From Desulfuromonas sp. (GTDB lineage: Bacteria; Desulfobacterota; Desulfuromonadia; Desulfuromonadales; BM501), in assembly GCF_002868845.1 (NCBI RefSeq), contig NZ_PKUB01000026.1, positions 40,837-81,010 of the forward strand: DNA of 40,174 nt. Reading direction: 5' to 3'. Positions 1 through 33,888 of this stretch are shown one piece after another. Every line of letters begins with the position of its first letter. The first letter of the stretch is position 1. A model generated the notes under the pieces. That model was not told the origin of the DNA and ran no database searches. It was given only the letters and a program-made list of their open reading frames with translations. The position numbers and the translations under genes were made by a program.

Positions 1-1431
1 CAGGGCCTTCCCGGTGAAAGCGGGGTTGCGACCCAGGCTGAGGTTTTGGCGAAGATTGCCGAGCAGGCTGATGGGGCGGTTTTGACTGTTCAGCAGGGCG
101 CCACCGAAGCGACGACCACGAATAAGCTGGATATAAAAGATGCAGCAGGAAACAGTAAATTCGTCGTCCAGGCAAGTGGAGCGGTTGGAATCGGCACCGA
201 TACACCCGGGGCGGCGATGGAGACCGTTTCCAGTGGCTTCCCGGTGGGATCATTTGTTCGCACTACGAGTCTTACCGGCGGACCACTATCCAGTAAAAGC
301 GGAATCTCTAGCGGGTACAGCCTGCGGACCAAAACCAGTGGCAACATGGGGGACGGTTTTGGCGGCGGAATTGTGCTGAGTTCTCAGGATAATACCTCGT
401 CCAGTTCTTACACCTCCGGAGTTATGGCGAGGCTTTACGCGCGGCGTGACGGGGGCGACAGCAATGGTGCCCTTCAGTTTTTCACCACAGGATATAATGC
501 GGATTCACCGACTATGACCTTGAGGAATTCGGGTTACGTTGGCATCGGCACCGTGGATCCAACCCAGATGCTGGACGTTAGTGGAAACGTCAAAGCCACC
601 ACTTTTATTGGTGATGGCTCGCAGTTGACCAACTTGCCGTCGGGTGGTTCATGGGGGGGGATCACTGGATCCCTATCCGACCAGGTCGACCTGAAAACAG
701 CTCTTGATGCAAAGGCTGGCGTTGTGGCATTTTCCACCGGTATGAACGGTCTGGTGCCTGGACCGACCTCTCAGTTAGGTAACTGTCTCAAGGATGATGG
801 GACTTGGGGGGATTGTGGAAGCGGTTCCAGTCAGTGGACCATGACTGGAAGTGACATCTCCTACGATATCGGCAATGTTGGCATTGGTACGGATTCCCCC
901 GGGGCGGCAATGGAGACCGTTTCCAGTGGCTTCCCCGTGGGATCATTTGTTCGCACTACGAGTCTTACCGGCGGGGCACTATCCAGTAAAAGCGGAATCG
1001 CTAGTGGGTACAGCCTGCGCACTAAAACCAGTGGCAACATGGGGGACGGTTTTGGCGGCGGAATTGTGCTGAGTTCGCAGGACAATACCTCGTCCAGTTC
1101 TTACACCGCCGGAGTTATGGCGAGGATTTACGCGCGGCGTGACGGAGGCGACAGCAATGGTGCCCTTCAGTTTTTCACCACAGGAGATAATGCGGACGCA
1201 CCGACGATGACCTTGAGAAATTCTGGCCATGTCGGTATTGGGACAACCGCTCCAGTTCAGATGTTGGATGTGAATGGTGCGATAAAGATTGGGGCAGACC
1301 CTGAGCAAACAACATGTGACGACTCGACCCGTGGTACAGTTCGTTTTGTCAATGGCGGACTAAGCGATGATGCCGTTGAGGTTTGCGGAAAGTTTGGGGG
1401 GGCGTTTCTTTGGAAATCTATCGTTCAGTAG
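1..1431 (+). CDS. Surface/fibre-like repeat protein, 5' end outside window
   Basis: The frame is open from base 1 (476 codons visible), so the gene starts upstream of the window; the TTG at 46 is not a credible start. The first residues read QGLPGESG, which looks like the end of a collagen-type Gly-X-Y stretch. The body holds two near-identical blocks of about 135 residues (bases 184-588 and 877-1281). Each is bounded by VGIGT..P...LDV-type motifs of the kind seen in tail-fibre-like and large bacterial surface proteins. Between the blocks is a fibre-like segment with the motif GDGSQLTNLPSG. The C-terminus has two Cys about 26 residues apart, and this tail is shared with the protein at 2044-2883. 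A terminator follows. No enzymatic motif is visible. A role as an exported adhesin or fibre is inference. Confidence 0.8.
   Translation, partial: QGLPGESGVATQAEVLAKIAEQADGAVLTVQQGATEATTTNKLDIKDAAGNSKFVVQASGAVGIGTDTPGAAMETVSSGFPVGSFVRTTSLTGGPLSSKSGISSGYSLRTKTSGNMGDGFGGGIVLSSQDNTSSSSYTSGVMARLYARRDGGDSNGALQFFTTGYNADSPTMTLRNSGYVGIGTVDPTQMLDVSGNVKATTFIGDGSQLTNLPSGGSWGGITGSLSDQVDLKTALDAKAGVVAFSTGMNGLVPGPTSQLGNCLKDDGTWGDCGSGSSQWTMTGSDISYDIGNVGIGTDSPGAAMETVSSGFPVGSFVRTTSLTGGALSSKSGIASGYSLRTKTSGNMGDGFGGGIVLSSQDNTSSSSYTAGVMARIYARRDGGDSNGALQFFTTGDNADAPTMTLRNSGHVGIGTTAPVQMLDVNGAIKIGADPEQTTCDDSTRGTVRFVNGGLSDDAVEVCGKFGGAFLWKSIVQ
184..1281 (+). repeat. Intragenic direct repeat, two ~405-bp copies
   Basis: Copies at about 184-588 and 877-1281 lie 693 bp (231 codons) apart, so the frame is kept. 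The central parts are almost identical in DNA, for example around GTGGGATCATTTGTTCGCAC in both. The edges are more diverged. This indicates recent duplication or ongoing gene conversion. Confidence 0.9.
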
Positions 1432-1457
1432 TTAAATAAATGCATGTTTTTGATTTG

Positions 1458-1492
1458 AGCCCTCAAAGACTTTTCTCTGCGAGGGCTTTTTT
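1458..1492 (+). terminator. Rho-independent terminator
   Basis: A 7-bp perfect stem, AGCCCTC (1458-1464) with GAGGGCT (1481-1487), is followed by a run of six T ending at 1492. It lies 27 bases after the stop of the upstream surface-protein gene and closes that transcript. Confidence 0.85.
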
Positions 1493-2043
1493 CTCTTTCC
1501 AGTAGGGGCTTTTTGTGATGCGATTGATGGATTGTTGCTGTTTGAGATGGCTCAAGCTTACCATGGACGCCAGGGACGACATGTCAGCCAGGTCAATTCC
1601 CCTCCGGTGAAAGGTTGGAAGAATTTCGGCAGCAGCAGGGTTTGGCCTTTTCAGCGCAATATGTATAAGAAAGCTTGCAATGGGGCCTTGGAACGGATTA
1701 AAATAATGTCGTGCAGGTGGTTTTTGCCCTCTTTTTCTGGAGATAAGGGGTGTCAGGTTGGTTTCCGTTGTTTTGTTTTTTTGCTTTCAGTTTCTTTCGT
1801 GTCTAATGTTGGCACTTGGGCCTGGTCGGGTTGAATCAATGGATTGCAGTGTCTGATAGGGCAGGGAGGGTGATCTGATTCATGACACCTGATAAAATCT
1901 TCCATAATAGGTCCATTTTTTAGGTCCATTTTTTCGACGTAAGGCAAGTTGGTGCTTGATGGTCAGGTTGATTGCAGACTGGCCGTGGGCAATGAGTAGT
2001 TAGTGCCAAAAACCAACATTAGGTGAGAAAGAGGGAGGCTCTA
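1493..2043. other. Intergenic stretch without a supported gene
   Basis: About 550 bases between the terminator and the next start. A 100-codon open frame at 1532-1834 has no recognisable protein features or good ribosome site. The only structure I see is a tandem near-duplication of TAGGTCCATTTTT at 1908-1920 and 1921-1933. The promoter of the next gene should lie here, but I could not pick out a convincing one. Confidence 0.6.
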
Positions 2044-2883
2044 ATGGAAAAGCTTGGGTCGGGCAAAAAGATCGGATTGTGTTTGTTTTTGGCGGTGCTA
2101 GTTTATGCCGTGGTTTCGGCAGGATCCGTCGTCGTGGCCTTGGAAAGTGATCGTGTTGTGATCGAGGACGATCTTGGAAATACCACTTTTAAGGTCACGT
2201 CCGAAGGGAGAGTAGACGGTCTCTCAATGACGCTGAGCCAGGCACAAGGCGAGAGCGAAGAGTCCACAAAGTTCTCTCTTGAGAATTCCTCTGGGACAAC
2301 TGTCATGAACATCAATGCCAAGGGGAATATGGGCATTGGTGAACCTGCCAGTCTCACGGTTCCCGTGGTGACTAGGGGAAGTACTTTTCCGGTTGGGTTT
2401 TTTGCCCGAACAACCTCTCTTACCGGAGGATCGTTTGATGGGTATTCAGGCATAGCCAGCGGGTATAGCCTGCGGACAAAAACCAGTGGAAACATGCAGG
2501 ATGGGTTCGGGGGGGGGATTTTGCTGAGTGTTCAGGATAATACCTCTTCGTCTGGCTATACTCAAGGAACTATGGCAAGGATTTATGCGCGTCGTGATGG
2601 AAGTGACACTAATGGCGCGCTGCAATTTTTCACAAAAGGAACAAATGCATCTTCACCGACGATGACCCTGAGAAGCTCGGGAAATGTTGGGATCGGGACG
2701 AGCGCTCCGGCGGCTGAACTTGAAGTCGATGGTGGGATGCGGTTGAATCCTGTTGATGCCAGCAAACCGACTTGTGACCCCAGTGCACGGGGGACCTTTT
2801 GGGTGACTCAGGGCGAAACGGATGATGTCGTGGAGGTCTGTGTTATGGTTAGCGGCGCTCTGCAATGGAAACCCGTCTGGTAA
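2044..2883 (+). CDS. Secreted surface repeat protein, paralogue of the first gene
   Basis: The 279-residue protein begins at ATG 2044, which has GGGAGG at 2033-2038. A GTG at 2023 in the same frame lies upstream of that site and is less likely. Residues 1-35 form a Sec-type signal: a basic stretch (KLGSGKK), then a long hydrophobic core ending near VVSAGS. Residues of roughly 95-230 match the repeated block of the upstream gene, including SGYSLRTKTSGNM and ARIYARRDG, flanked by GIG motifs. The C-terminus repeats the same Cys-containing tail (TCDPSARGT ... VEVC). It therefore contains one copy of the block where the neighbour has two. Probably an exported or surface structural protein. The exact function is not recognised. 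Confidence 0.8.
   Translation: MEKLGSGKKIGLCLFLAVLVYAVVSAGSVVVALESDRVVIEDDLGNTTFKVTSEGRVDGLSMTLSQAQGESEESTKFSLENSSGTTVMNINAKGNMGIGEPASLTVPVVTRGSTFPVGFFARTTSLTGGSFDGYSGIASGYSLRTKTSGNMQDGFGGGILLSVQDNTSSSGYTQGTMARIYARRDGSDTNGALQFFTKGTNASSPTMTLRSSGNVGIGTSAPAAELEVDGGMRLNPVDASKPTCDPSARGTFWVTQGETDDVVEVCVMVSGALQWKPVW
2335..2725 (+). repeat. Third, diverged copy of the surface-protein block
   Basis: Encodes the same residue pattern (TTSLTGG, SGYSLRTKTSGN, DNTSSS, MARIYARRDG, GALQFFT) as 184-588 and 877-1281. The DNA is clearly more diverged than the two upstream copies are from each other. Confidence 0.8.
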
Positions 2884-3353: not shown

Positions 3354-4271
3354 ATGAAATTTTCAGTAGTTATTCCAGTCTATAATAGTGAAAAATCACT
3401 TGAAGAATTGTACGCTCGGCTTAGGTCTGTCTTTAAGGGTATGGGTAATGATTTTGAAGTGATTTTTGTAAACGATTGCAGCCACGATAGAAGCTATGAA
3501 ATTTTAGAGAAAATATATCGTGAAAATATAAACATAAAAATTGTCGATTTTTTTAAAAACTATGGCCAGCAAAATGCCCTCCTTTGCGGGTTTGGATACT
3601 GTGAGGGGGACTATGTTGTCACGATTGACGATGATCTTCAGAACCCTCCAGAGGAAATCCCTAAACTATATGAAAAATTGGCAGAAGGGTACGATGCTGT
3701 ATTCGGTTGTTATCGGGACAAGAAAGACAAGTCGTATAAAAATTTCGGGAGTTATCTGATAAGAAAAATAAATCACAACGTATTTAACATAAAAGATGAT
3801 TTAAAATTTTCTAGTTTTAGAGTTATTAGGAAAGAGGTTGTTGATCAAATAAAAAACACGAGAACAATATATCCTTATATTTCCGGGATGTTGATGTCTG
3901 TAACCAGCAAAGTTGCAAATGTGTATATCCAGCATGAAAAAAGAAAATACGGAGAATCAAACTACACTTTGGGTAAGTTGATTTCTCTTTCATATAACTT
4001 GATTATCAACTATTCATCTCTCCCTTTGAAGGCTATTAGTGTCCTGGGTCTGGCCGTTTCCTGTCTTTCGTTTCTGGTAGGAATGATTTTCGTTGTAAAG
4101 AAATTGCTTTTAGGGCAGGCCCCTGCTGGATGGACAAGCCTAATCGTCTTGATGTCCCTTTTTAATTCTATCATTCTTGTGATTTTATTTGTGTTTGGTG
4201 AATATTTGTCCAGAATTTTAAAAGAAGTTTCTGGGCACAAGCAATTTACGGTCAAAGAGGTTTTGAAGTGA
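3354..4271 (+). CDS. Polyprenyl-phosphate glycosyltransferase, GT2 (ArnC/GtrB-like)
   Basis: The 305-residue protein begins MKFSVVIPVYN, the usual start of this family; in-frame TTG and ATG codons at 3339 and 3345 only add odd residues. The GT-A domain carries VNDCSHD near residue 40 and the DDD metal/nucleotide motif at 92-94 followed by LQNPPEEI. Near residue 200 is RKYGESNYTLGKL, characteristic of the DPM1/ArnC/GtrB group. Two hydrophobic helices close the protein (about 224-247 and 258-286), as expected for enzymes that load a sugar on undecaprenyl phosphate at the inner membrane. The stop overlaps the next start (GTGA at 4268-4271), so the two are translationally coupled. The low GC compared with the rest of the window suggests transfer. 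The sugar donor cannot be read from sequence; context suggests an amino sugar. Confidence 0.85.
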   Translation: MKFSVVIPVYNSEKSLEELYARLRSVFKGMGNDFEVIFVNDCSHDRSYEILEKIYRENINIKIVDFFKNYGQQNALLCGFGYCEGDYVVTIDDDLQNPPEEIPKLYEKLAEGYDAVFGCYRDKKDKSYKNFGSYLIRKINHNVFNIKDDLKFSSFRVIRKEVVDQIKNTRTIYPYISGMLMSVTSKVANVYIQHEKRKYGESNYTLGKLISLSYNLIINYSSLPLKAISVLGLAVSCLSFLVGMIFVVKKLLLGQAPAGWTSLIVLMSLFNSIILVILFVFGEYLSRILKEVSGHKQFTVKEVLK

Positions 4272-4927
4272 AAAAGAGGCTGATTGTTGTTGGGGGACAT
4301 GGCAGTGGTGAAATTGCCATGTCTGTTTTTCAGGAAGTAAACAGTCTCACAAATGAATGGATCATTGAAGGGTTTTTGAACGATATCGTTGATCCGGGCA
4401 ATTGCCTGGGGAAGTACAAGGTGATTGGGCCTACAGACGCTATTCTGGACTACGTCAACAAAGGTTACCATATACACTACACCCTTCACTTTAATGCAAA
4501 AAACAAAGAACAGAGAGTTGATAAGTTCAAATCTTTAAACATCCCCCTTGAGGCAAATGCCACGGTAGTACACCCCAGGGCGCACATTGATCCCTCCACG
4601 GAAATCGGGTTCGGGACGATGATCTGTGCCAATGCGAGCACCTCCTTCGGTCCCAAAATTGGGAATTTTGTTCACGTCTATACCAATGGTTTTGTGGGGC
4701 ATGATTCAACGGTCGGCGATTATGCCACGGTTGCGGCACATTCTGTTATCGGTGGCAGGATAGATATCGACACGGGCGCCCATATAGGGCTTAACTCGTG
4801 TATCAGGGAGGATCTGCGCATTGGGAAATTCGCTATCGTGGGAATGGGGGCAGTGGTTACCAAGCCTGTCGAAGATTACGCGATAGTTGCCGGAAACCCA
4901 GCCAAGGTCATTGGTTCGGTTAAGTAG
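4268..4927 (+). CDS. Sugar N-acyltransferase, PglD/NeuD family
   Basis: The 219-residue protein starts at GTG 4268, inside the stop of the preceding gene. The N-terminal segment begins KKRLIVVGGHGSGEIA, the small Rossmann-like domain of PglD/NeuD enzymes. From about residue 95 the chain shows left-handed beta-helix hexapeptide repeats (for example IDPSTEIGFGT and VVTKPVEDYAIVAGNPAKVI). NGFVGHD places the likely catalytic base at His145. Family members transfer an acyl group from acyl-CoA to the amine of a nucleotide-linked 4-amino sugar. Here it lies next to a hydratase, a lyase and an aminotransferase. I infer that it attaches an acyl group, possibly one made by those neighbours, to a 4-amino-4,6-dideoxy sugar. 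Confidence 0.8.
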   Translation: MKKRLIVVGGHGSGEIAMSVFQEVNSLTNEWIIEGFLNDIVDPGNCLGKYKVIGPTDAILDYVNKGYHIHYTLHFNAKNKEQRVDKFKSLNIPLEANATVVHPRAHIDPSTEIGFGTMICANASTSFGPKIGNFVHVYTNGFVGHDSTVGDYATVAAHSVIGGRIDIDTGAHIGLNSCIREDLRIGKFAIVGMGAVVTKPVEDYAIVAGNPAKVIGSVK

Positions 4928-4961
4928 GTCTTCGAAAGATAGTCAATCAGGAGTAATAAAG

Positions 4962-5420
4962 ATGAGCCGCCTTCCCTATCGACGCACCCTTGATCAGTTC
5001 ACCGTTGGTGAGACTCTCGACCATTGGCCGCATAAGACGGTCACTGAGAGCGACAACAATCTGTTTTGCCTGCTGACACTAAACCATCATCCAGTCCACA
5101 GTGACGCGGTCTATGCTGGGGGGACCCAGCACGGGAAGTTGCTCGTGGTTGGAACTTACGTGCTCAGCACGGTCGTTGGGATGACCGTCCCGGAGATCTC
5201 GGGCGCTGCGATAGCAAATCTCGAGTACGAAAAGGTGGTTCACAACGGCCCCGTTTTTATCGGCGATACCATCCGGGCGGAAACGGAGGTCCTTGATGTC
5301 ATCCCCTCTAAAACCAAATCCGATCGTGGGGTCCTTTATGTTGAGACCCGTGCCTTTAACCAGAGAGAAGAAAAGATTCTGACCTTTCGGCGCCGGATTT
5401 TGCTGCCTTTAAGCAAATGA
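4962..5420 (+). CDS. MaoC-like (R)-hydratase / mesaconyl-CoA hydratase-like
   Basis: The 152-residue hot-dog-fold protein starts at ATG 4962, with AGGAG at 4949-4953. An upstream in-frame ATG at 4887 would overlap the acyltransferase and has no ribosome site. The segment TESDNNLFCLLTLNHHPVHSD is the family's active-site region: His46 is present, and the residue usually Asp five positions earlier is Asn41. This matches the subgroup related to mesaconyl-CoA hydratases, which often sits beside CitE-like lyases, as here (30 bases separate the genes). It probably hydrates or dehydrates a CoA-linked acyl chain. In this cluster I infer a role in making the hydroxyacyl donor for the adjacent N-acyltransferase. 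Substrate unknown. Confidence 0.75.
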   Translation: MSRLPYRRTLDQFTVGETLDHWPHKTVTESDNNLFCLLTLNHHPVHSDAVYAGGTQHGKLLVVGTYVLSTVVGMTVPEISGAAIANLEYEKVVHNGPVFIGDTIRAETEVLDVIPSKTKSDRGVLYVETRAFNQREEKILTFRRRILLPLSK

Positions 5421-5449
5421 GAACCCGTACTTTTATATAGGAGTTCGTT

Positions 5450-6391
5450 ATGGCCAAACCATATGATGGGGACTGGGTGCTGCGCACGTTGCTTTTTCTT
5501 CCCGGGCATGTCGAAAAGATGGTTCACAAGGCTGCCTCCTCCGGCGCCGACTGTGTCGTTCTGGACCTGGAGGACGCCGTGCCCCACGACCAGAAAGAGG
5601 CTGCGCGTCAGAGTATTCGCGGCTTTTTGGGGGAGGGGCTTTTTGAAAACAGGACCGTTTTCGTGCGGATCAATCCAATCAGTTCGGGGCTTACGTTGCG
5701 CGACCTTGACGGTGTGGCCTGTGAGGAGCTGCATGGTTTCGTTTACCCGATGGCTCACACGGCGGACGACATAAAGAAATTTGACGCCCAGCTCAGTTTG
5801 ATTGAGAGCAATCTCGAACTGCCGAAAGGCCACTTTTCTCTGATCGTCCTCATTGAGACGCCCCTTGCGGTCCTCAATGCATACGAGATAGCTACTGCGT
5901 CCGATCGTGTGGTGGGTCTGCTGTTTGGATGCGAAGATTACATGGCGGATATGCAGGCCCGCTATGCCGAATTGGACATGCCCCTGCACACCCCGCGCAG
6001 CATGGTGGCCATGGCATCCCGGGCCGCTGGGGTGGAGCCGATCGATACTCCGTACGTGCGTGTTCACGATTTGGCCGGGCTGGAGACCTTTGCTTCGAGG
6101 GCGCGGGATATTGGTATGGCGGGGATGCTGGTCATGACTCCCCGGCAGATTGACGTTGCCAACGAGATTTATACGCAGACGGACAGGGAGATCGCCGACA
6201 GTCGCGAGATTGTCGATGCGGCTGAGAATGCCCGGAAGGAGGGCCGCAGCATTGTGGTGGTTAACGACAAGTTTGTTTCACCGCCGACCCTTAAGCAAGC
6301 GAAGAAGGTTCTGGAGCGGGTCGGAGCGATAGAGGAATTGGTCCGGGTGACCCAAAAAGAGACCGTTTTACTTTTGACAATCAATGTTTAG
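5450..6391 (+). CDS. HpcH/HpaI aldolase, citrate-lyase-beta-like (CitE family)
   Basis: The 313-residue TIM-barrel enzyme begins at ATG 5450 with a GGAG at 5431-5434. It carries the CitE hallmarks: LLFLPG at 14-19, LDLEDAV at 38-44, VRINP at 72-76, IETP with Glu136, and FGCEDYMAD at 159-167. The last of these supplies acidic residues for Mg2+ and the CoA ester. Family members make or cleave beta-hydroxyacyl-CoA esters such as malyl-CoA, methylmalyl-CoA and citramalyl-CoA. Pairing with a mesaconyl-CoA-hydratase-like gene suggests interconversion of hydroxy-dicarboxylic and unsaturated CoA esters. Its place between an acyltransferase and aminosugar genes suggests a biosynthetic rather than catabolic use. 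That is inference. Confidence 0.8.
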   Translation: MAKPYDGDWVLRTLLFLPGHVEKMVHKAASSGADCVVLDLEDAVPHDQKEAARQSIRGFLGEGLFENRTVFVRINPISSGLTLRDLDGVACEELHGFVYPMAHTADDIKKFDAQLSLIESNLELPKGHFSLIVLIETPLAVLNAYEIATASDRVVGLLFGCEDYMADMQARYAELDMPLHTPRSMVAMASRAAGVEPIDTPYVRVHDLAGLETFASRARDIGMAGMLVMTPRQIDVANEIYTQTDREIADSREIVDAAENARKEGRSIVVVNDKFVSPPTLKQAKKVLERVGAIEELVRVTQKETVLLLTINV

Positions 6392-6409
6392 CCCTGACGG
6401 CTATCGAAT

Positions 6410-6754
6410 ATGCATCTCCTTTTTTTGTCTCTAATTTTCAGATCCCTTGCATCGATATGCGCGAAGCAGGCGGCCTTGACCAGTCTTGGCGAGGGCCTTT
6501 GGGGGATTCTTTTCAACCCCTGGCTTTTTTCGGAAATCGTCATGCTGGCATTGCAGGCCGTCATGTGGTCTCTGGTTCTGAGGCGGATGCCCATTACTCT
6601 TGCATACCCTTTCATGAGCTTGGTGATTGTTTTTAACCTGTTGGCCGCATGGCTCCTTTTTGGGGAAACAATATCATTGCAGAATTTGGGTGGGGCTTTC
6701 TTTATCGTTTGCGGCATTCTGGTTATGTCGGTGAAGAAAAGAACGGTAGCATAA
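6410..6754 (+). CDS. Small multidrug-resistance-fold membrane protein (ArnE-like flippase subunit)
   Basis: The 114-residue protein has four predicted membrane helices and the EmrE/SMR signature region PITLAYPFMSLVIV, followed by LLAAWLLFGETIS. This matches ArnE, one half of the pair thought to flip undecaprenyl-phosphate-aminoarabinose. It starts 18 bases after the CitE-like stop and is followed four bases later by a second small membrane protein. The obligate-pair arrangement and the ArnC-like enzyme upstream support a lipid-linked-sugar flippase over a drug pump. The ribosome site is weak. Confidence 0.7.
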   Translation: MHLLFLSLIFRSLASICAKQAALTSLGEGLWGILFNPWLFSEIVMLALQAVMWSLVLRRMPITLAYPFMSLVIVFNLLAAWLLFGETISLQNLGGAFFIVCGILVMSVKKRTVA

Positions 6755-6758
6755 ATAG

Positions 6759-7100
6759 ATGTTACTTGAGTTTGGCCACGAAATCAGCTTAGGGTTGGCA
6801 GTTGCTTTTACGATAGTATCTCAAATGCTATTGAGGCTTGGCTCAAAAAAAAAGCAAAAGGCGGTCGATGTTTTTTTTAACTGGCACACATTTTTTGGCT
6901 ACTTGATATTTCTAGTTGTCATTGTTCTTGTCGTTTTTGCCATGCAAAAATTGCCACTTAAGACAGTTACCGCATGGAATTCTGTCACCTTTTTTCTTGT
7001 TCCGCTGTCCGGTTTTGTCTTTCTTGGTGACCCCTTTTCAAGAAAGATGCAATTTGGCTCTGTTTTAATCCTTATTGGGGTTCTTGTTTTCAATTTGTGA
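6759..7100 (+). CDS. Second SMR-type membrane protein (ArnF-like flippase subunit)
   Basis: The 113-residue protein has four predicted helices (about 8-24, 44-64, 68-86 and 95-113) and begins at ATG 6759, four bases after the stop of its partner. The pattern LPLKTVTAWNSVTFFLVPLSGFVFLGDPF corresponds to helix 3 and the loop before helix 4 in SMR/EamA half-transporters. Sequence identity to its neighbour is low, as for ArnE and ArnF. Its length, order and spacing argue for a heterodimer. The cargo is inferred to be a polyprenyl-phosphate-linked acylated amino sugar. Confidence 0.65.
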   Translation: MLLEFGHEISLGLAVAFTIVSQMLLRLGSKKKQKAVDVFFNWHTFFGYLIFLVVIVLVVFAMQKLPLKTVTAWNSVTFFLVPLSGFVFLGDPFSRKMQFGSVLILIGVLVFNL

Positions 7101-7159
7101 TCATTTGGTTTTTATAGTTTTCGCATTTTTCATGACATCTCAAGGGTTGGGTTAGATAT

Positions 7160-8347
7160 ATGGCGATCCCTTTTAATAAACCGTTTGTTGTGGGCAAGGA
7201 ACTCTTCTACATCTCCCAGGCGGTCCTAGAGGGCAATCTGGCAGGAGACGGCCGGTTTACAAAACTTTGCCATCGATGGATGGAGGAAAGGTTTGGCGCG
7301 CGCAAGGTCCTTCTGTCGACCTCTTGTACCGCCGCACTTGAGATGTGCGCAATCCTCGCCGATATTGGCCCCGGGGACGAGGTTATTATGCCCTCTTACA
7401 CCTTTGTCTCCACGGCCAACGCTTTTGTTTTGCGAGGTGCAAGCATCAAGTTTGTTGACATCCGCAAAGACACTTTGAATATCGACGAAACTCTCATCGA
7501 AGCGGCCATCACCGATCGCACCAAGGCAATTGTGCCCGTCCACTATGCGGGTGTCGGGTGTGAGATGGACACCATCATGGAGATCGCCGAAAGGCACAAT
7601 CTGCTGGTCATCGAGGATGCAGCCCAGGGGGTCAATGCCACCTACAAGGGCCGTTACCTTGGGACAATAGGTCATCTGGGTACCTACAGTTTTCATGAAA
7701 CAAAGAATTTCATCAGTGGAGAGGGCGGAGCTTTGGTCATCAATGATGACCGTTTCCTCGAACGGGCCGAAATAATCCGTGAGAAGGGGACCAACCGAAG
7801 TCAGTTCTTCCGGGGCGAGGTAGACAAATACACCTGGGTCGATGTGGGCTCTTCCTACCTGCCGTCGGAGATGATCGCCGCATTTCTCTATGCCCAGCTG
7901 GAAGAGGCCGAAGCCATCACCAGCAAACGGTTGTCCATTGTCGGATATTATTCCCAAAAGTTCGGCCCCCTGCAGGAGCAGGGCCTTGCGCGGCTGCCTT
8001 TCTGCTCCGGGGACGTCTGCCACAACGCCCACATGTTTTACCTCCTCCTGTCGACGGCACGGCAGCGGGACGAACTGCTCGCATATCTGAAGAACCAGGG
8101 CGTTGGCGCTGTCTTTCATTATGTTCCTCTGCACACTTCCCCCATGGGTCGGGAGATGGGGTACGAGGAAGGCGACCTGCCCTTGACTGAAGATTTGAGC
8201 TCGCGCATTCTGCGGCTCCCCTGCTATTTCGACCTGACCCGGGAAGAGCAGGACCGGGTGGTGGGCCATGTGTTTGGGTTCTTAGGGCAAGGAAAGGGCC
8301 GCCTCTCCGACGCGGCTTTGTTCTCGGCGAGTCAGGAGGTTTCTTAG
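7160..8347 (+). CDS. wecE: dTDP-4-amino-4,6-dideoxygalactose transaminase (WecE/RffA family)
   Basis: The 395-residue PLP enzyme of the DegT/DnrJ/EryC1 family starts at ATG 7160. The opening IPFNKPFVVG and LAGDGRFTKLC are typical of the WecE/RffA branch. The PLP lysine is Lys182 in SFHETKNFISGEGG, and Asp153 in IEDAAQG contacts the pyridine nitrogen. WecE aminates dTDP-4-keto-6-deoxyglucose, the product of RfbB, whose gene lies at 31161 in this window. Its amino-sugar product would be the natural substrate of the PglD-like acyltransferase upstream. C-4 amination giving the galacto rather than the gluco product is assumed from subfamily resemblance only. Confidence 0.85.
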   Translation: MAIPFNKPFVVGKELFYISQAVLEGNLAGDGRFTKLCHRWMEERFGARKVLLSTSCTAALEMCAILADIGPGDEVIMPSYTFVSTANAFVLRGASIKFVDIRKDTLNIDETLIEAAITDRTKAIVPVHYAGVGCEMDTIMEIAERHNLLVIEDAAQGVNATYKGRYLGTIGHLGTYSFHETKNFISGEGGALVINDDRFLERAEIIREKGTNRSQFFRGEVDKYTWVDVGSSYLPSEMIAAFLYAQLEEAEAITSKRLSIVGYYSQKFGPLQEQGLARLPFCSGDVCHNAHMFYLLLSTARQRDELLAYLKNQGVGAVFHYVPLHTSPMGREMGYEEGDLPLTEDLSSRILRLPCYFDLTREEQDRVVGHVFGFLGQGKGRLSDAALFSASQEVS

Positions 8348-8905: not shown

Positions 8906-9682
8906 ATGAACCTGTTTCACTTTTTCTCACTAGTCAACACGCAAGCCAGGATGGCATTGAAGGCCGAGGCCTCAAAGTTTGTTCTGAGTTACCTTTGGTG
9001 GGTTATCGAACCATTGCTCTTTGTTCTTATCTATTACCTTGTCTTTGAGGTTTTGCTCGGTAGGGGGCGGGACGATTTTCTGCTGTTCCTGATCTGCGGG
9101 AAAATCCCATACCTGTGGTTCCAGAAGGGTGTGGTCTCCGCTTCCAATAGCATTGTTCAGAATAAAGGGTTGATCAACCAGGTTGAGATGCCCAAAGCCC
9201 TGTTCCCCTACGCCTCTGTTCAAGAAGCAATGTATAAGCAGTGGGTGGTGTTTCTTGTTCTGTTTGGCGTGGTCACGTTCTATGGGTTCCGTCCGGAACT
9301 CAATTGGCTCTGGTTGGCTCCTGTCGTCATCGTTCAGTATGCCCTGATCCTGGCATGTTCCCTGCTGGGAGCTTTATGCGTTAGTTTTTATGGTGACTTT
9401 AGAATGGTCATCAATATGGGGATGCTGTTTCTGATGTTCTCATCAGGCCTTTTCTGGGACGTGAATGACATTGCCGATCCTGCGACCCGCGACCTGTTGT
9501 TTGCCTGCAATCCACTCGCTTTCCTGATCGATGCATACCGACAGGTATTGATGGGCCGGACCGTGTATGACCTGGAGCACATGGCGGTTCTCGCTGGTGT
9601 GATTGCGGTCGCTTTGCTCATTATGCATATCGTTTTACACAAGATGAGCAGAATCATAGCAGCGCGGGTTGTGAACTCTTGA
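8906..9682 (+). CDS. Polysaccharide ABC transporter permease (Wzm/KpsM-like)
   Basis: The 258-residue inner-membrane protein of the ABC-2 type has about six hydrophobic segments. I chose ATG 8906 (MNLFHFFSLVNTQ), which gives the short amphipathic N-terminus followed by LKAEASKFVLSYLWWVIEPLL that is typical of Wzm/TagG permeases. Starting at 8834 would add 24 unlikely residues. FSSGLFWDVNDI and ACNPLAFLIDAYRQVLMG near the C-terminus match the family. The stop overlaps the start of the ATPase gene (TTGA at 9679-9682). It should export a lipid-linked polysaccharide across the inner membrane. Confidence 0.88.
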   Translation: MNLFHFFSLVNTQARMALKAEASKFVLSYLWWVIEPLLFVLIYYLVFEVLLGRGRDDFLLFLICGKIPYLWFQKGVVSASNSIVQNKGLINQVEMPKALFPYASVQEAMYKQWVVFLVLFGVVTFYGFRPELNWLWLAPVVIVQYALILACSLLGALCVSFYGDFRMVINMGMLFLMFSSGLFWDVNDIADPATRDLLFACNPLAFLIDAYRQVLMGRTVYDLEHMAVLAGVIAVALLIMHIVLHKMSRIIAARVVNS

Positions 9683-10407
9683 GCACTCTGTCGAAGAACA
9701 TTCTTGAAGCACATGATCTGGCGCTTCGCTACAGGAGTCGTTCGGGCTTGTTCAAAAGATTCGAACACACGGCCCTGAAAGGCGTTTCCTTTGAACTCAA
9801 GCGGGGGGAAACCCTCGGAATTCTGGGGCGCAACGGCTGTGGCAAGAGCACTCTGCTGCGCCTCCTGGCAGGCATCATCAAGCCGACATCAGGGACTATC
9901 GTCTGCGATAAACAAGTCAGGCGCGCCCTGTTGATTCTTGGGCTCGGTTTTCGGCCGGATCTCACGGGTCGTGATAATGCTCTGTTAAGCGCCATGCTCC
10001 AGGGATCGAGCCGAAAGCAAGCCCTTGCCGCGTTGCCGGGCATCCACAAATTCTCCGAACTTAGGGAGTTCTTCGATCAACCGGTCAAGACCTATTCGGC
10101 GGGCATGCGCGCCAGGCTGAGTTTCGCCACGGCGATAGAGACCGAAGTGGATGTGTTGCTGCTCGATGAGGTGCTCAGTGTTGGGGATGCGCATTTCAAA
10201 AAGAAGGCTGAAAAAGTAATGCTTAAGAAAATTGAAAGCGAGCAGACGGTTGTTTTCGTTTCTCATAGTGCTGCAGAGGTCAACAGATTGTGTGACCGGG
10301 CGCTGTGGCTGGAAGATGGAGTCGTGAAAAGTGAGGGCGATGTCAAAACGGTCTCCGACCAGTATGGTGAGTTCATAGAGGGCTTAAATGCAAAAAATGG
10401 TAAGTAG
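9679..10407 (+). CDS. Polysaccharide ABC transporter ATP-binding protein (Wzt/KpsT-like)
   Basis: The 242-residue ATPase starts at TTG 9679, overlapping the permease stop, so it is coupled to it. Walker A is GRNGCGKST (50-58), the signature is TYSAGMRARLSFA near 140, Walker B is DVLLLDEVLSVGD and the H-loop is VFVSHSAAEV. TYSAGM is the variant signature of polysaccharide exporters. At 242 residues it lacks the C-terminal carbohydrate-binding domain of O9a-type Wzt. It is therefore KpsT-like, and export should not depend on direct end-group recognition by this subunit. Confidence 0.9.
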   Translation: MSTLSKNILEAHDLALRYRSRSGLFKRFEHTALKGVSFELKRGETLGILGRNGCGKSTLLRLLAGIIKPTSGTIVCDKQVRRALLILGLGFRPDLTGRDNALLSAMLQGSSRKQALAALPGIHKFSELREFFDQPVKTYSAGMRARLSFATAIETEVDVLLLDEVLSVGDAHFKKKAEKVMLKKIESEQTVVFVSHSAAEVNRLCDRALWLEDGVVKSEGDVKTVSDQYGEFIEGLNAKNGK

Positions 10408-19666: not shown

Positions 19667-21751
19667 ATGTGTTCGTCTGGAAAAATTAAGGAAAATTCAA
19701 GCAAGAGCGAAACGCTCTTGCTTTTCTCCGTGTTTTTCTCGGTTGTTGTTTTTAACGCGCACATTCCCTTTGTGGACCTGCTTTGGCATGATGACCAGAC
19801 ATGGATTTACCGTGCGGCGACCGACTCGATTTACCAGGATTGGAGAGCAAAGACCGCATTTCTGGTCCCTCTGAAGGATTATTTCTATTCGTTTTCTTTG
19901 TTTTATCTCGGGGTGCCATTCGCGAGAATAATATATGTCTGCATTTTAGCTCTCTCATCTGTTCTATTCTATATCATTTACAACAAAATATTTGGCATTC
20001 GAAAATCAGTCTCTTTTGCCTCTGCCGTTGTGCCAAACATTCTTCCGAGTCTTATAGGTATACCGATTGGGCTCAACAATACTTATGCCGTTTGGAGCTT
20101 GATCCCGACCCTGTCCTGTCTGATATTGTTGAGATATGCCATTTTCGCTGAGAAGGTGAAATTTGTCTTCTTGTCTCTTTTGTCCTTATTGCTGTTTGTG
20201 GCTGGCCTTAACTTTTCGTCAGCAGGAATTTTCCTCATTCCAAATGTTCTCCTGTTTTGCCTCTTCTTTGTGAGGGCAAATAAGTATTATCTATCTGTAT
20301 GCCTCGGTTTTTTCGTCTCCTTCGGGGCATGGCAAGTTTATAAACAGGCCCACCTTGGCTCGAAGGCACCGGTCGCTTTTGAAAAGGCGGTTTTTGTCAA
20401 AAGGCTGCATCGGTTTTTCGAGGTCTGTACTCCTCTGCCTAAAACATTTCCATATGTTGAAATCGTTGTGCCATCTCTGATGCTGGTCGGCGTGCTGGTC
20501 CTTTTGTTTTTTCACAGGAGGTTTGTCGAAAAGCCGGATCATTTCAAAAACGTAAACAACCTGTATTATGGCGTTCTTGTCGCTCTTTGGCCTGCTTTGT
20601 GGGTCGTGTCAAACATTGCTGTTTATCTGACGGTGTCTCCCGATTTCAGGATTGACACCTATTCCTATGTCGCCAATTTTGGTGTTTCCCTTCTGATGCT
20701 GACCGGCACCCTTTTTGTCGCCGGAGCCATTTTATACCCCTTCACCTTTTTCCTTAAGCACAAGCCTGTCTATTGGGTTCTAGCCGTCTTGTTGATCTGT
20801 TTCACGGGGGGGTATAGATACGTCAAAACGAGCCACGCATACACCAAGTACGAAAAGGACATCCATCTTCTCAGGTCCAATCTCGGCCAGTATTCCTTTC
20901 CGCCCAACTCCCAGATCGTGACGTTGGGAGGGTTCTCCGCCTTCAATCAGGGATTGACGGTCTCCAATTCGGGTATTTTTATCTGGATATTTAACCGCGA
21001 GGACCTACGGGGGATGATTGGGAAGGATCAATTTCCCGCGGATCTTTTCTCCAAATTCAGTTGGAGCAAAAGGATGCGAGGCATCGATCCCGATAAACCG
21101 CTTTTTGTCTTCGCGAAAGACAAGAAGGCCGGCTTGGAGAGGGTGAAGTTGTTGCTGAGCACCACCAGTTCGAAATTGGCCAGTGGGCCGAGAATTATGT
21201 GGAGGCTCTACGATGTGAGTTCTCCGGGTGGTGAAGTGGTTGAGATGGCTAGCGGGAGCGGCCTGAAGTCCTATTACGACTATTTGAAAGACGGCATGCC
21301 AGTCGAATTCGTCAACGAATCCATTGCCTTTTCACCCTCGAAAGGCATTGCTTATGACATCATCGATCAGGATTCGGCAAAGGAGTTCCTTGAAGGTTCG
21401 AACCTGATCCAGAATGAAGTTCAATTTGAGGATGTCGTTACTCTGGGCGGAGTTAAGTGCCGCGAGATTGATCCAAAAAAGCAAGCGATCAATTTGGTTT
21501 TTCGTGTCGACAAAAATCCAAAGTACCGCATAGGTTTTTCCTTGAACGGAAAGCGCAAGTATCTGCCAATATATGACCTTGCCATGGCCGGGGATTACGT
21601 GAAGATTTCTGTATCTACACCAAAGTCCAAGAATGCAAAGCTTGAATTTTTCAAAGCAAACCGTTGGCCTCACCCTCCTATCAAAATCAAAGATAACAGT
21701 AACGAAAACAATGGATTTCTGAGTGTTGATCTCGAAGCCTGTAGTCTTTAA
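19667..21751 (+). CDS. Large polytopic membrane protein, possibly GT-C type
   Basis: The 694-residue protein starts at ATG 19667 with AAGGAA about five bases before. About ten hydrophobic segments occupy residues 16-390, followed by a soluble region of about 300 residues. After the first helix comes LLWHDDQTWIYRA (Asp42-Asp43). A di-acidic motif in the first outer loop is the hallmark of GT-C glycosyltransferases, which use polyprenyl-linked sugars. I do not recognise a specific family, and the rest shows no clear motif. Low GC matches the next gene. It may transfer the amino sugar from the lipid carrier built by the 3.3-8.3 kb operon, but this is speculation. A polymerase or a generic membrane protein remains possible. 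Confidence 0.6.
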   Translation: MCSSGKIKENSSKSETLLLFSVFFSVVVFNAHIPFVDLLWHDDQTWIYRAATDSIYQDWRAKTAFLVPLKDYFYSFSLFYLGVPFARIIYVCILALSSVLFYIIYNKIFGIRKSVSFASAVVPNILPSLIGIPIGLNNTYAVWSLIPTLSCLILLRYAIFAEKVKFVFLSLLSLLLFVAGLNFSSAGIFLIPNVLLFCLFFVRANKYYLSVCLGFFVSFGAWQVYKQAHLGSKAPVAFEKAVFVKRLHRFFEVCTPLPKTFPYVEIVVPSLMLVGVLVLLFFHRRFVEKPDHFKNVNNLYYGVLVALWPALWVVSNIAVYLTVSPDFRIDTYSYVANFGVSLLMLTGTLFVAGAILYPFTFFLKHKPVYWVLAVLLICFTGGYRYVKTSHAYTKYEKDIHLLRSNLGQYSFPPNSQIVTLGGFSAFNQGLTVSNSGIFIWIFNREDLRGMIGKDQFPADLFSKFSWSKRMRGIDPDKPLFVFAKDKKAGLERVKLLLSTTSSKLASGPRIMWRLYDVSSPGGEVVEMASGSGLKSYYDYLKDGMPVEFVNESIAFSPSKGIAYDIIDQDSAKEFLEGSNLIQNEVQFEDVVTLGGVKCREIDPKKQAINLVFRVDKNPKYRIGFSLNGKRKYLPIYDLAMAGDYVKISVSTPKSKNAKLEFFKANRWPHPPIKIKDNSNENNGFLSVDLEACSL

Positions 21752-21841: not shown

Positions 21842-22513
21842 ATGATTACTTTCTTTTCACATATCCCAAAGGCCGGTGGCACGACGTTGAAACAAATTTT
21901 TTATAAAGCCTTTGGGCAGCAAGGTTGTATAAAGGTTTGGCCAAATTTTGGTGCGGATGTCGATGTCGAAGGGTTCAAGGGGCTTGAGGAGTCCAGTTTT
22001 AGAGAGATTTCTGCAGTAGTGGGCCACCTCCCCGTAGGTTCTTTCATGGAAAACAGATTTGGGGAAAGCCTTTTTGAAAAAGGGGTCGTCGACATAATAA
22101 CTTCCGTGCGTCACCCCTTTGAAAGAATTGTTAGTCTGTATAACTATTTATATTACAATGCCGAACATCCTCATCATGAGGAAATGAAAAAGACGCCTTT
22201 AGGCAATTTCGTAAAGTATCAACCGGGGAACTATCAGTTTGAGTACTTAAAAACGGATTGTTTTGATTCTCCGAAAAAAATACTGGAAAAATTCAAAGTG
22301 TTCTCGATGGAAAATTCTATCGATGGGTTCAAGGAGTATTTTGCCGAAAAACATAACCTTATCATGGGCAATGTTGAAGTACAGAATACATCAAAGACAC
22401 ATGCCGGAGCGGGAAGGCTTTTTAAAGTCGAAGATATTCCAAAGGAAATACTTTTGGAACTAGAAAAAAAGCATGAAATTGATCTGGAATTGTACGAGGG
22501 TGCAAAAAAATAG
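21842..22513 (+). CDS. Sulfotransferase, Sulfotransfer_2 (heparan 2-O-sulfotransferase-like)
   Basis: The 223-residue protein starts at ATG 21842 with a strong GAGGAG at 21830-21835. FFSHIPKAGGTTLKQIF (residues 4-20) is the PAPS 5'-phosphosulfate loop of the HS2ST/Gal3ST class. SVRHPFERIVSLYNY near residue 88 is the 3'-phosphate motif. GHLPVGS lies between them, where the family has its catalytic-region His. It is shorter than eukaryotic relatives and has no membrane anchor, so it should act in the cytoplasm on a nucleotide- or lipid-linked sugar. A T8 run at 22557-22564 follows the gene, but no convincing stem precedes it. The gene is AT-rich compared with gmd downstream. Confidence 0.82.
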   Translation: MITFFSHIPKAGGTTLKQIFYKAFGQQGCIKVWPNFGADVDVEGFKGLEESSFREISAVVGHLPVGSFMENRFGESLFEKGVVDIITSVRHPFERIVSLYNYLYYNAEHPHHEEMKKTPLGNFVKYQPGNYQFEYLKTDCFDSPKKILEKFKVFSMENSIDGFKEYFAEKHNLIMGNVEVQNTSKTHAGAGRLFKVEDIPKEILLELEKKHEIDLELYEGAKK

Positions 22514-28332: not shown

Positions 28333-29802
28333 ATGATTCAATTCAAAATCGAAAACAGTTTGCCCGATAAGCTGGCCCCGAAGAATATCAATCGTTACCT
28401 GGTAGAGGGTTGGGTTGCCGGCGGATCGAGGATCAGCTATATCCGAATCAGGGTCGGTGGCAAAACGTTCGCCTCCAAAGATGTCGAGTTGTACCGCCCC
28501 GACGTCAGGACCTCCTTCTTCGCGAAAGAAAAGTCTTTTCAGACCCTTTTCCCGGGTTTCTCCATCCCCGTCGTTGTCGGCCCCGTCGAGGCCGCCGAAG
28601 AGCATGCCGTCATGTTGGAGTGTGCCTTTGCCGACGGCTCCTCCCTGAAGGAAAAAATCGGAACCGTTTCCATCGGTCCCTATGCCAAGGAAGTCCGAAC
28701 CTTCGAGATTCCGCCGCATATCGACCAGGACAACCTCCTGGCCATTTGCATGGCGACCTACAATCCGGACGGCCCCTACTTCAAAAGGCAGATAGACAGC
28801 ATCATCGGCCAGGAGCACCAGGACTGGATCTGCATCATTTGCGACGACAACTCGTCGGAAGACAGCAGGGATTTGATCAAGGAGGCCGTCAAAGACGACC
28901 CCCGGTTCTTTCTGGTGGAAAACGATCAGAACGCGGGCTTTTATGGCAACTTCGAACGTTGCCTCGAACTCGCCCCCGCCGAAGCAAAGTTCGTTGCACT
29001 CGCCGACCAGGACGACATCTGGTATCCGCACAAGCTGAGCAGTTGTCTTGCGGAATTCGATGCGTCGACCATGCTGGTTTACAGCGACATGAAGGTTGTC
29101 GACAAAGACAGAAACGTGTTGTGCGACACCTACTGGAGGAACAGGAAAAACTACTACGAGTCGAAGGACATCGACCTGCTGACACTTGCCAATACGGTCA
29201 CGGGAGCGGCCTCGGTTTTCAGGCGGGAACTGCTCGACCTGGCGCTGCCTTTCCCCCCCCGTTACGGGGAGGTTTTTCATGATCAATGGCTGGCCATCAT
29301 GGCCGCCGGGAATGGCGGCATCCGGTATGTTGACGAGCCCCTTTATGAGTATGTTCAATATGACAACAATGTCATAGGTCACACCGACTTCGGCCGTCGG
29401 TCCCTCTTCTCGGTCGCGAAGGACTATGTTCGCGAGGCCTATGACATTCAAAAACAACACCAAGGACTCTTTAAGAAACTTCTGTTGTGCCTTAAGGCGA
29501 TACCGTGTCTTGTCATAGGCCTCTACCACTTCAAGCATACCCATGGGAAACATATTGACACCCTTGCGGAAACAGCATTGCTTCGCCGGCTGAACGCCTC
29601 TTCGCAGCGACTTGTTCAAAGAACAAGATCCGCAACAGGTTTGTTCCGGATTCATTTCAAGGTTTGGAAGCGCAAAGAGACACTGAATAATCTTGAACTG
29701 GTATTCTGTTTCAGTGCAATGGCCAACACCCTGTTTCGCTGGGCCGCGCCTTTGCTCTGTTGGTATATGAAAACTTTCCTTCAAAGACGTGTGGGGAATT
29801 GA
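28333..29802 (+). CDS. GT2 glycosyltransferase with N-terminal beta-rich domain (rhamnosyltransferase-like)
   Basis: The 489-residue protein starts at ATG 28333. Residues 1-130 are a beta-rich region without catalytic motifs. From about residue 135 comes a GT2 domain: ICMATYNPDGPYFKRQIDSI, ICDDNSSEDS, ALADQDDIWYPHKL as metal motif (near 225) and GEVFHDQWLAIMAA. ADQDDIW and F.DQW are typical of rhamnosyl- and related transferases of the WbbL/RfbF type. dTDP-rhamnose is made by the genes from 31161. The C-terminal 100 residues are hydrophobic and basic, probably membrane-associated. Thirteen bases separate it from the next gene. Confidence 0.82.
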   Translation: MIQFKIENSLPDKLAPKNINRYLVEGWVAGGSRISYIRIRVGGKTFASKDVELYRPDVRTSFFAKEKSFQTLFPGFSIPVVVGPVEAAEEHAVMLECAFADGSSLKEKIGTVSIGPYAKEVRTFEIPPHIDQDNLLAICMATYNPDGPYFKRQIDSIIGQEHQDWICIICDDNSSEDSRDLIKEAVKDDPRFFLVENDQNAGFYGNFERCLELAPAEAKFVALADQDDIWYPHKLSSCLAEFDASTMLVYSDMKVVDKDRNVLCDTYWRNRKNYYESKDIDLLTLANTVTGAASVFRRELLDLALPFPPRYGEVFHDQWLAIMAAGNGGIRYVDEPLYEYVQYDNNVIGHTDFGRRSLFSVAKDYVREAYDIQKQHQGLFKKLLLCLKAIPCLVIGLYHFKHTHGKHIDTLAETALLRRLNASSQRLVQRTRSATGLFRIHFKVWKRKETLNNLELVFCFSAMANTLFRWAAPLLCWYMKTFLQRRVGN

Positions 29803-29815
29803 AAGGTCTTGTTTG

Positions 29816-31114
29816 ATGAAAAAAATAAACGTTTCGAAAGAAGAGAACTATATTTTCAATACAGCAGGATTTGAAGTTTCAGGTGGCAAGGAGTGCCTTG
29901 TCAAATTAAGCATAAAAGGGGTGAATGGCAGTCCTTATTCTTTTTATTTCTGCGTTTGCATCCTCGATGAGGCGGGCAAAGAAATAAAGAGATTTATCAA
30001 GTGGGTCGACGATTTCAGTGGAAAATCGAAAAAATACTCTCTCGTCTTCTCCGTTCCCGAGATGGCTCACAAGGCCGTGCTGGGCTATCGGGGGAATGTC
30101 GAAGGGGCTGATAAGTCTGACTTGTCATTGGCCCTCCCCGATTTGTCGGAGAATTGTCTTCGGCAGGTCGAGGGCCTGCCTGAGACTTTTGACGATTTGA
30201 AAAAACGTCCGCCGAGGGTTCTTTTCACCATCCCCGAATTGGACGGGGCAGGGGAACAACTTCTGGAGAAAAACATTGTCGGCATCTTCGGCTCCCCGAG
30301 GACCGGGTCGACCTGGCTCGGGCAGCGGCTTCTCAAAGACCATAAGGGCATCGCCAATTGGCAGGAACCGTATCTCGGGAATTTGCTTGGAACAAACCGA
30401 AGCATAAAGGATCCTCTTACGGGTGAAATGACACTGCAAAGAGTTCACGACAAGTTTGCTGAAACGGAGGATTACTTTTTTTCCAATAAACATAAAAAAT
30501 ATTGGTTGGCTGGCTTGAACAAGATGATCCTGTATAGAGCCTTTGCCCAATGCAGCGATTTTTCAAAAAAGATCGTCTTTAAGGAACCCAACGGTAGTCA
30601 GGCCGCCGACATAATCATGGAGGCGCTCCCGAATGCCAAGATGATTTTTCTTCTGAGGGATGGCCGGGATGTGGTTGATTCCCTCGTTGACCTGCACAGA
30701 AAAGGTTCATGGAACCAAAGGCCAACCTTGGACACGAAACAAAAAAGGCTGAGCAGTATCGCAAATTACTCCAAGTCATGGAGGCTCCAAACGGAGGTTG
30801 TTAAAAAGGCATTTGAAAATCACGATGAAGATTTGAGATTGCTTGTGAAATATGAGAAGCTGAAAAGCGACACCTTCGCAGAGCTGAAAAATATTTTTGA
30901 ATTTATTGGTGTTGACGCTTCAGATAAGGAAGTCTCCCAAAGAGTTGACAAGCACGATTTCAAGAATATTCCAACTTCGGAAAAGGGTCCCGGCAAGTTC
31001 AATCGCGCGGCCTCAACGGGTGGATGGAGAGATGCTTTCGCCGAGGAAGAGATCGATCTGATGCATTCAATAATGGGTGAGACTTTATTGTCTTTAGGGT
31101 ATGGTGTACGTTGA
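29816..31114 (+). CDS. Sulfotransferase with N-terminal accessory domain
   Basis: The 432-residue protein starts at ATG 29816, with AAAGG at 29802-29806 overlapping the end of the preceding gene. In-frame residues from 29789 would overlap that gene and lack a ribosome site. Residues 1-140 are a beta-rich, non-catalytic domain. Residues of about 155-432 form the sulfotransferase: VGIFGSPRTGSTWLGQRLL (PAPS 5'-loop) and MIFLLRDGRDVVDSLVDLH (3'-phosphate motif, near 279). This type sulfates sugars in the cytoplasm. It is the third sulfotransferase of the window, and PAPS is supplied by cysD and cysNC. Confidence 0.85.
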   Translation: MKKINVSKEENYIFNTAGFEVSGGKECLVKLSIKGVNGSPYSFYFCVCILDEAGKEIKRFIKWVDDFSGKSKKYSLVFSVPEMAHKAVLGYRGNVEGADKSDLSLALPDLSENCLRQVEGLPETFDDLKKRPPRVLFTIPELDGAGEQLLEKNIVGIFGSPRTGSTWLGQRLLKDHKGIANWQEPYLGNLLGTNRSIKDPLTGEMTLQRVHDKFAETEDYFFSNKHKKYWLAGLNKMILYRAFAQCSDFSKKIVFKEPNGSQAADIIMEALPNAKMIFLLRDGRDVVDSLVDLHRKGSWNQRPTLDTKQKRLSSIANYSKSWRLQTEVVKKAFENHDEDLRLLVKYEKLKSDTFAELKNIFEFIGVDASDKEVSQRVDKHDFKNIPTSEKGPGKFNRAASTGGWRDAFAEEEIDLMHSIMGETLLSLGYGVR

Positions 31115-32285: not shown

Positions 32286-32300
32286 CGCGTAACGCGTCAC
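32282..32300. repeat. Perfect palindrome forming the rfbD start
   Basis: GTGACGCGT, A, ACGCGTCAC: nine-base perfect arms around one base. The first three bases are the rfbD start codon, and bases 2-4 are the rfbB stop. It belongs to the GTGACG family by its outer bases. Confidence 0.9.
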
Positions 32301-33762: not shown

Positions 33763-33868
33763 GGACACGGACGAACACAGATTGACACGGATCAGGAATA
33801 GATCTCACAGGCTTTAGCAACCTCCGTTTTTTTGATTTATCCGTGTGCATCCGTGTAATCCGTGTCCC
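33763..33868. repeat. Palindromic element downstream of GxxExxY gene (ACACGGAT family)
   Basis: Begins GGACACGG and ends ATCCGTGTGCATCCGTGTAA then TCCGTGTCC. It is the second copy of the element at 33263-33363, in the same orientation, and lies directly before the rfbA ribosome site. Decayed pieces of the same family lie at about 35398-35424 and 36283-36343. Confidence 0.88.
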
Positions 33869-33888
33869 ATAAGAAGGAGGAGACTGAA

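Follow-up and report, generated by a model that had tools for sequence, protein, structure and literature searches.

The window analysed here, a 40,174-nt stretch of a Desulfuromonas sp. genome (contig NZ_PKUB01000026.1, positions 40,837 to 81,010), carries a seven-gene operon (3354–8347) in which predicted genes for the amination, N-acylation and lipid-carrier loading of a sugar stand together with a MaoC hydratase and a CitE-like protein, both relatives of enzymes that act on coenzyme A (CoA) thioesters. In agreement with a preliminary description made from the sequence alone, all seven lie together and collinearly on the + strand among the window's open reading frames, with short gaps that range from a 4-nt overlap, in which the stop of the glycosyltransferase (GT) gene overlaps the start of pglD, up to 59 nt; a 558-nt gap follows wecE. 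The genes are as follows.

3354..4271, + strand: polyprenyl-phosphate glycosyltransferase of family 2 (GT2), GtrB/ArnC type; two hydrophobic helices at the C-terminus (profile and structure matches)
4268..4927, + strand: left-handed beta-helix N-acyltransferase of the PglD/NeuD/VioB type, active-site His145 in place (profile and PDB match)
4962..5420, + strand: MaoC hydratase/dehydratase of the mesaconyl-CoA hydratase kind, with Asn41...His46 in place of Asp...His (profile)
5450..6391, + strand: CitE-like triosephosphate-isomerase (TIM)-barrel protein; Ser277 at the site of the lid Asp; Glu136 and Asp163 (Mg ligands), Arg73 and Glu41-Asp42 retained (profile and model)
6410..6754, + strand: ArnE-like small transporter half, 45% identical to the copy in genome G522 (profile and synteny)
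6759..7100, + strand: ArnF-like small transporter half, 30% identical to the G522 copy (profile and synteny)
7160..8347, + strand: WecE, deoxythymidine-diphosphate (dTDP)-4-dehydro-6-deoxyglucose 4-aminotransferase, pyridoxal-phosphate lysine 182 in place (curated model)

Family calls were made with Pfam and NCBIfam models with curated cut-offs, and each of the seven genes was supported. WecE, the sole WecE-type copy in the genome, scored 612 bits against its model (cut-off 375) and 600 bits against TIGR02379 (cut-off 434.85), with Lys182 present, and only 223 bits against the ArnB model PRK11658 (cut-off 631). The acyltransferase matched the NeuD/PglB/VioB model TIGR03570 over its full length at 147 bits (cut-off 160.8), and its best PDB match was VioB (7txp). 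The profile families of the pair between the acyltransferase and the transporters are MaoC/RipB-like and CitE/RipC-like.

Genome collections were sampled, and the distribution figures given here describe that sample (G and L codes label compared genomes and loci; L011 belongs to G522, L010 to G007 and L100–L104 to G533–G537). Scanning genome contigs with the window's CitE protein revealed two relatives at 63–64% identity, in G522 and G007. The former, a metagenome-assembled genome (MAG) of candidate division KSB1 and thus of another phylum, matches the window in all seven genes and their order, but for one extra ligase gene (WbqC, GT, PglD, MaoC, CitE, ArnE-like, ArnF-like, PaaK-like ligase, WecE), so that the arrangement is more than chance; a chance neighbourhood was rejected on this synteny, and the proposal of the preliminary description, which hung on the neighbourhood recurring in other genomes, survives in that respect. 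When 39 genomes of the same phylum were searched, close CitE relatives appeared in 10. Five KSB1 genomes (G533–G537) have WbqC, GT, PglD, MaoC, CitE, ligase, WecE and a nucleoside-diphosphate (NDP)-hexose 2,3-dehydratase, with a PMT_2 C-type glycosyltransferase (GT-C) in four of the five loci in the stretches read and, in G537, one extra open reading frame between maoC and citE. Given the added dehydratase, the sugar of these copies may be without its 2-hydroxyl group. Three of the loci (L102, L103 and L104) also conserve a divergent set upstream of WbqC on the opposite strand, whose members resemble, by eye, a dehydrogenase, a KDO8P/DAHP synthase and an aminotransferase.

The remaining loci share the core in other company. 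A DegT aminotransferase, MaoC, CitE and PglD form the set in G523, G530 and G540 of the G522 phylum, and on its short contig G546 joins MaoC and CitE to a ligase of weak kinship and to an N-acetyltransferase of the AAC(3) type, which, being unrelated to the PglD kind, points to N-acylation as the common purpose. Within the window's own taxonomic order, G007 (a Desulfuromonas MAG) has an aminotransferase, MaoC, CitE, PglD and a Wzx-like protein; G468 has DegT, MaoC, CitE and PglD with an adjoining ATP-binding-cassette (ABC) exporter; and G477 has RmlB, RmlA, FdtA, MaoC, CitE, PglD, DegT and a Wzx-like protein, where FdtA marks a 3-amino sugar and the cassette thus sits inside a 3-amino-sugar set. 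Altogether, the MaoC–CitE pair was found at 14 loci in two phyla, with an N-acyltransferase alongside in every one and a sugar aminotransferase in 13, and GT, PglD, MaoC, CitE and WecE occur together in that order in seven genomes of both phyla. Across the class, this CitE was present in 4 of 277 genomes, set off from the ordinary paralogues by a gap in E value from 1e-137 to 1e-81. The short flanks of 14 other CitE paralogue loci, taken from relatives of the window's genome and including that genome's own copy, served as a control and yielded no GT, PglD, MaoC, flippase or WecE match. Plasmid searches returned no CitE of the glycan-linked clade, and a single viral contig matched, distantly (27%). 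MaoC homologues at 54% identity from the phylum search were considered as further cassette members and rejected: the two readable contexts (G083 and G429) were catabolic, and a CitE match was present in none of the stretches fetched around the five highest-scoring.

Phylogeny placed the 14 glycan-linked CitE sequences on one side of a branch from 18 paralogues with support of 99/99, in a set without distant CitE families from other phyla, so that a single origin in the whole superfamily is not proven. The AlphaFold model of the window's protein (pLDDT 90) has the TIM barrel, C-terminal lid and Mg-binding Glu and Asp of the CitE-like superfamily, and its best structural matches are malyl-CoA lyases (5ugr, Z 35.9; 4l9y, Z 35.0; differences within 1 are ties). 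The lid Asp, Asp299 of Rhodobacter sphaeroides Mcl, is replaced in all 14 clade members (Ser in eight, Gly in five, Ala in one) within the motif F[VI][SAG]PP. The same residue is kept in each of the 12 paralogues with sequence at this position, in two plasmid lyases and in PDB entries 5ugr, 5vxc, 1sgj, 4l9y and 3qll; a second, ordinary CitE of the window's genome (at C9) has it too. Zarzycki and Kerfeld reported Arg76 and Asp299 (Rhodobacter numbering) to be conserved throughout the CitE superfamily, the single exception for Asp299 being Glu in a thioesterase group, and proposed that Asp299 protonates the enolate in the malyl-CoA lyase mechanism (PMC3832036). The Mg ligands Glu136 and Asp163, together with Arg73, Glu41 and Asp42, are invariant across the clade, as is a Cys161 beside the metal site that is absent from the paralogues. 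By its residues, the glycan-linked CitE looks like an enzyme of altered chemistry, not a decayed one.

The top profile matches of MaoC were mesaconyl-CoA hydratase/beta-methylmalyl-CoA dehydratase structures (4e3e and 8hgn), with whose second domain its Asn and His align, and PhaJ-type hydratases scored far weaker than C5 dicarboxylyl-CoA hydratases. The Asn41-His46 pair fits the mesaconyl-CoA hydratase kind, Asn41 being Cys or Val in 2 of the 14 members. A 52%-identical MaoC with the same Asn...His motif lies on a Streptomyces plasmid in a cluster of ccr, mutase, lyase, MaoC and acyl-CoA dehydrogenase, in agreement with the emc operon of the ethylmalonyl-CoA pathway described for Streptomyces (PMC4606968). 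In the MaoC tree, the Streptomyces copy stands next to the glycan-linked MaoC proteins in a joint group supported at 91/90, and the glycan group itself is weakly separated (73/42). Judged by kinship and by its Asn...His pair, the window's MaoC is of the mesaconyl-CoA hydratase type.

The operon is composed of parts with different histories, as indicated by the identities and by the G+C content of the GT gene. Specifically, MaoC, CitE and WecE of the cassette core are 61–71% identical between the window and G522, as against 30–34% for GT, PglD and ArnF and 45% for ArnE, and the GT gene has a G+C content of 35% versus 54–57% for maoC, citE and wecE. On composition, the GT gene appears to be a recent acquisition within the operon. 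A further sign of part exchange comes from G007, which combines window-like MaoC and CitE with a PglD and a Wzx of the kind found in the other group.

Elsewhere in the window lie further candidates for sugar supply, export and transfer.

8906..10407, + strand: polysaccharide exporter ABC-2 permease and ATPase, next transcription unit (profile)
19667..21751, + strand: 694-aa protein with about nine predicted membrane helices and Asp-Asp after the first helix (no family match)
31161-32285, + strand: RmlB
32282-33253, + strand: RmlD
33862-34761, + strand: RmlA
34839-35384, + strand: RmlC

The Rml genes would supply dTDP-4-dehydro-6-deoxyglucose, the substrate of WecE, and the ABC exporter is a possible export route for the glycan that bears the sugar. 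The 694-aa membrane protein is a tentative GT-C partner; it gave no family or fold match, and its structure model (pLDDT 36) was useless. Two sulfotransferase-family genes and a sulfate-activation set (APS kinase with DUF2061, a PAPS_reduct/CysD-like protein and a CysN-APS kinase fusion) occupy 21842-22513, 29789-31114 and 35391-39714, and the glycan of the locus is probably sulfated. On the other side of the operon, fibre- or adhesin-like repeat modules (FPVG.FVRTTSLTGG...) occur in two neighbouring genes (window 46-2883 and contig stretch L031 9192-10854), which are preceded by a collagen-like Gly-X-Y gene.

The carrier genes resemble Arn proteins without being an Arn system. The best model for the GT, ArnC PRK10714, gave 187 bits against a cut-off of 529, and in structure matches the protein was equally close to the GtrB sll0501 (5ekp) and to ArnC; the ArnE-like half reached 45.6 bits (cut-off 92) and the second half matched EamA-type models only. 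No PMT_2 (ArnT-type GT-C) match was found in the window's genome (99.84% complete, 56 contigs). The 4-amino-4-deoxy-L-arabinose (L-Ara4N) Arn system proper was rejected on the missed ArnC, ArnE and ArnB cut-offs and the missing PMT_2, and with it falls the Arn-like label of the preliminary description. As a GT2 protein with C-terminal membrane helices, the GT has the architecture of the polyprenyl-phosphate sugar synthase of three-component glycosylation, and by analogy with such systems (PMC11127046) it and the two small transporters point to a donor linked to undecaprenyl phosphate, making this route likely in the window. The same description had tied the cassette as such to an Arn-type lipid carrier; that tie does not hold, because related cassettes also occur where the cluster encodes a Wzx or an ABC exporter.

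Taken together, we propose, at a probability of roughly 60%, that the product of the operon is an N-acylated dTDP-4-amino-4,6-dideoxy sugar, with 4-amino-4-deoxyfucose (Fuc4N) as its probable type, and that this sugar is then attached to undecaprenyl phosphate. We infer each enzymatic step, the acyl group and the service of all seven genes to one sugar as follows. RmlA and RmlB would provide dTDP-4-dehydro-6-deoxyglucose, which WecE would aminate at C4; MaoC and the CitE-like protein, with the PaaK-like CoA ligase in the KSB1 copies, would be a dedicated source of a short beta-hydroxy- or alpha,beta-unsaturated dicarboxylyl-CoA; and the PglD-type enzyme would transfer its acyl group, at a first guess of the beta-methylmalyl/mesaconyl type, to the 4-amino group. 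The GtrB/ArnC-type transferase would then pass the acylated sugar to undecaprenyl phosphate, the small EamA/SMR-like pair would flip the lipid-linked sugar, and a putative GT-C enzyme would add it to the surface glycan. All loci share MaoC, CitE, an N-acyltransferase and, contig permitting, a sugar aminotransferase, which is most economically read as a dedicated source of an uncommon acyl-CoA with which an NDP-amino sugar is N-acylated. The kinship of MaoC and CitE favours a C4–C5 dicarboxylyl-CoA, and an N-acyl group of dicarboxylic type would be in keeping with known glycan chemistry, as marine bacteria have amino sugars with malyl substituents (PMC3210612).

Several observations weigh against this proposal. 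With the lid Asp of the accepted mechanism missing in all 14 clade members, the usual Claisen chemistry is doubtful, and the loss argues against a plain malyl-/methylmalyl-CoA lyase. Thus, of the earlier suggestion that CitE and MaoC make the acyl group, the dedicated supply remains plausible and is partly strengthened, while plain malyl- or methylmalyl-CoA synthesis has become questionable. We tentatively suggest, at clearly less than even odds, that a CitE without the enolate-handling Asp performs a different C–C chemistry, for example a condensation with an enolate from decarboxylation, for which no base is needed, and with MaoC would give a C5 dicarboxylyl-CoA, such as methylmalyl- or mesaconyl-CoA, for surface amino-sugar N-acylation. 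Further, the window operon has no ligase, its genome holding only distant PaaK-like homologues (23–27%) elsewhere; that genome gave no PMT_2 match; and the window and G522 alone have ArnE/F genes within the operon. The operon is a mosaic, and its GT and flippase might serve another sugar. The last point underlies a rather unlikely account in which the cassette works as proposed, cytoplasmic glycosyltransferases use the acylated dTDP-sugar for an ABC-exported polysaccharide, and the GtrB/ArnC-type GT and small transporters carry that other sugar. Its basis is that G007, G468, G477 and G540 have same-clade cassettes alongside export genes of the Wzx or Wzm/Wzt type, with no ArnC-like gene seen in the stretches read, that an ABC exporter directly follows the window operon, and that the GT gene is compositionally foreign. 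However, the company and order that GT keeps with the cassette genes in seven genomes of two phyla, and the overlap of its stop with the pglD start, argue against this account.

In another account, the N-acyl group is an ordinary one, such as (R)-3-hydroxybutyryl formed by MaoC from crotonyl-CoA, and the CitE-like protein has lost its C–C chemistry and serves in binding, as a scaffold or as a thioesterase. The universal loss of the lid Asp would fit such a role, and 3-hydroxybutyryl is known on 4-amino-4,6-dideoxy sugars (PMC3927599; PMC3210612), but we consider this unlikely, as the invariance of both Mg ligands, Arg73, Glu41 and Asp42 is unlike a decayed enzyme and MaoC is nearest to the C5 dicarboxylyl-CoA hydratases rather than the PhaJ type. 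MaoC/CitE pairs are also common in catabolic clusters, as on a Pseudosulfitobacter plasmid with a CoA transferase, MmgE and acyl-CoA dehydrogenase, and the pair could in principle serve central carbon or itaconate-type catabolism and lie in a sugar operon by chance. That is highly improbable: all 14 clade members adjoin an N-acyltransferase, almost every one of them within a clear glycan cluster, and no CoA transferase, acyl-CoA dehydrogenase or C4-dicarboxylate transporter is among the genes adjoining the pair in the window. A misplaced central-metabolism CitE was likewise rejected, given the separate clade and the second CitE, with its lid Asp, in the genome. On this point the preliminary description is supported, the pair being of a lineage that occurs with sugar N-acyltransferases and stands apart from the genome's other CitE.

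Amino-sugar acylation clusters with their own acyl chemistry are already known. The anthrose operon of Bacillus anthracis, as the window does, unites an aminotransferase, an acyltransferase, a CoA-chain enzyme, there a crotonase-type hydratase, and a glycosyltransferase; it is not known to have a CitE-like protein or undecaprenyl-phosphate carrier genes. The viosamine island of Pseudomonas syringae (vioA, vioB, vioS, vioR, acp, vioM and vioT) likewise gathers a dTDP-4-amino-4,6-dideoxy sugar, an aminotransferase, a VioB-type N-acyltransferase and dedicated acyl-chain genes in one cluster, but its 3-hydroxybutyryl chain is attributed to acyl-carrier-protein enzymes (PMC3927599), whereas the operon described here has a mesaconyl-CoA-hydratase-like MaoC and a CitE-like protein, joined by a CoA ligase in the KSB1 copies. 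In a search mostly outside subscription journals, we found no paper that connects CitE or mesaconyl-CoA with the N-acylation of glycans, and no report of a methylmalyl-/mesaconyl-type C5 dicarboxylyl N-acyl group on surface amino sugars. All parts are single soluble enzymes open to assay, and if the proposal is true, a mobile cassette of CoA-lyase and mesaconyl-CoA-hydratase relatives, serving 3- and 4-amino-sugar pathways and various export routes, would be a new source of surface diversity.

The carrier genes share with three-component systems (GtrA/GtrB/GT-C; PMC11127046) a polyprenyl-phosphate sugar synthase and a small, here putative, flippase, and differ from them in an amino sugar with its acyl supply built in and in a GT-C partner that is only a tentative candidate. 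The cassette itself resembles the malyl-CoA lyase and mesaconyl-CoA hydratase of the ethylmalonyl-CoA pathway, or the itaconate-degrading RipB/RipC, in its adjoining MaoC and CitE relatives and its CitE fold. It departs from both in a glycan context instead of carbon metabolism and in the exchange of the lid Asp for Ser, Gly or Ala, and our proposal, if true, would assign a role to a CitE branch that is at odds with the reported conservation of its superfamily.

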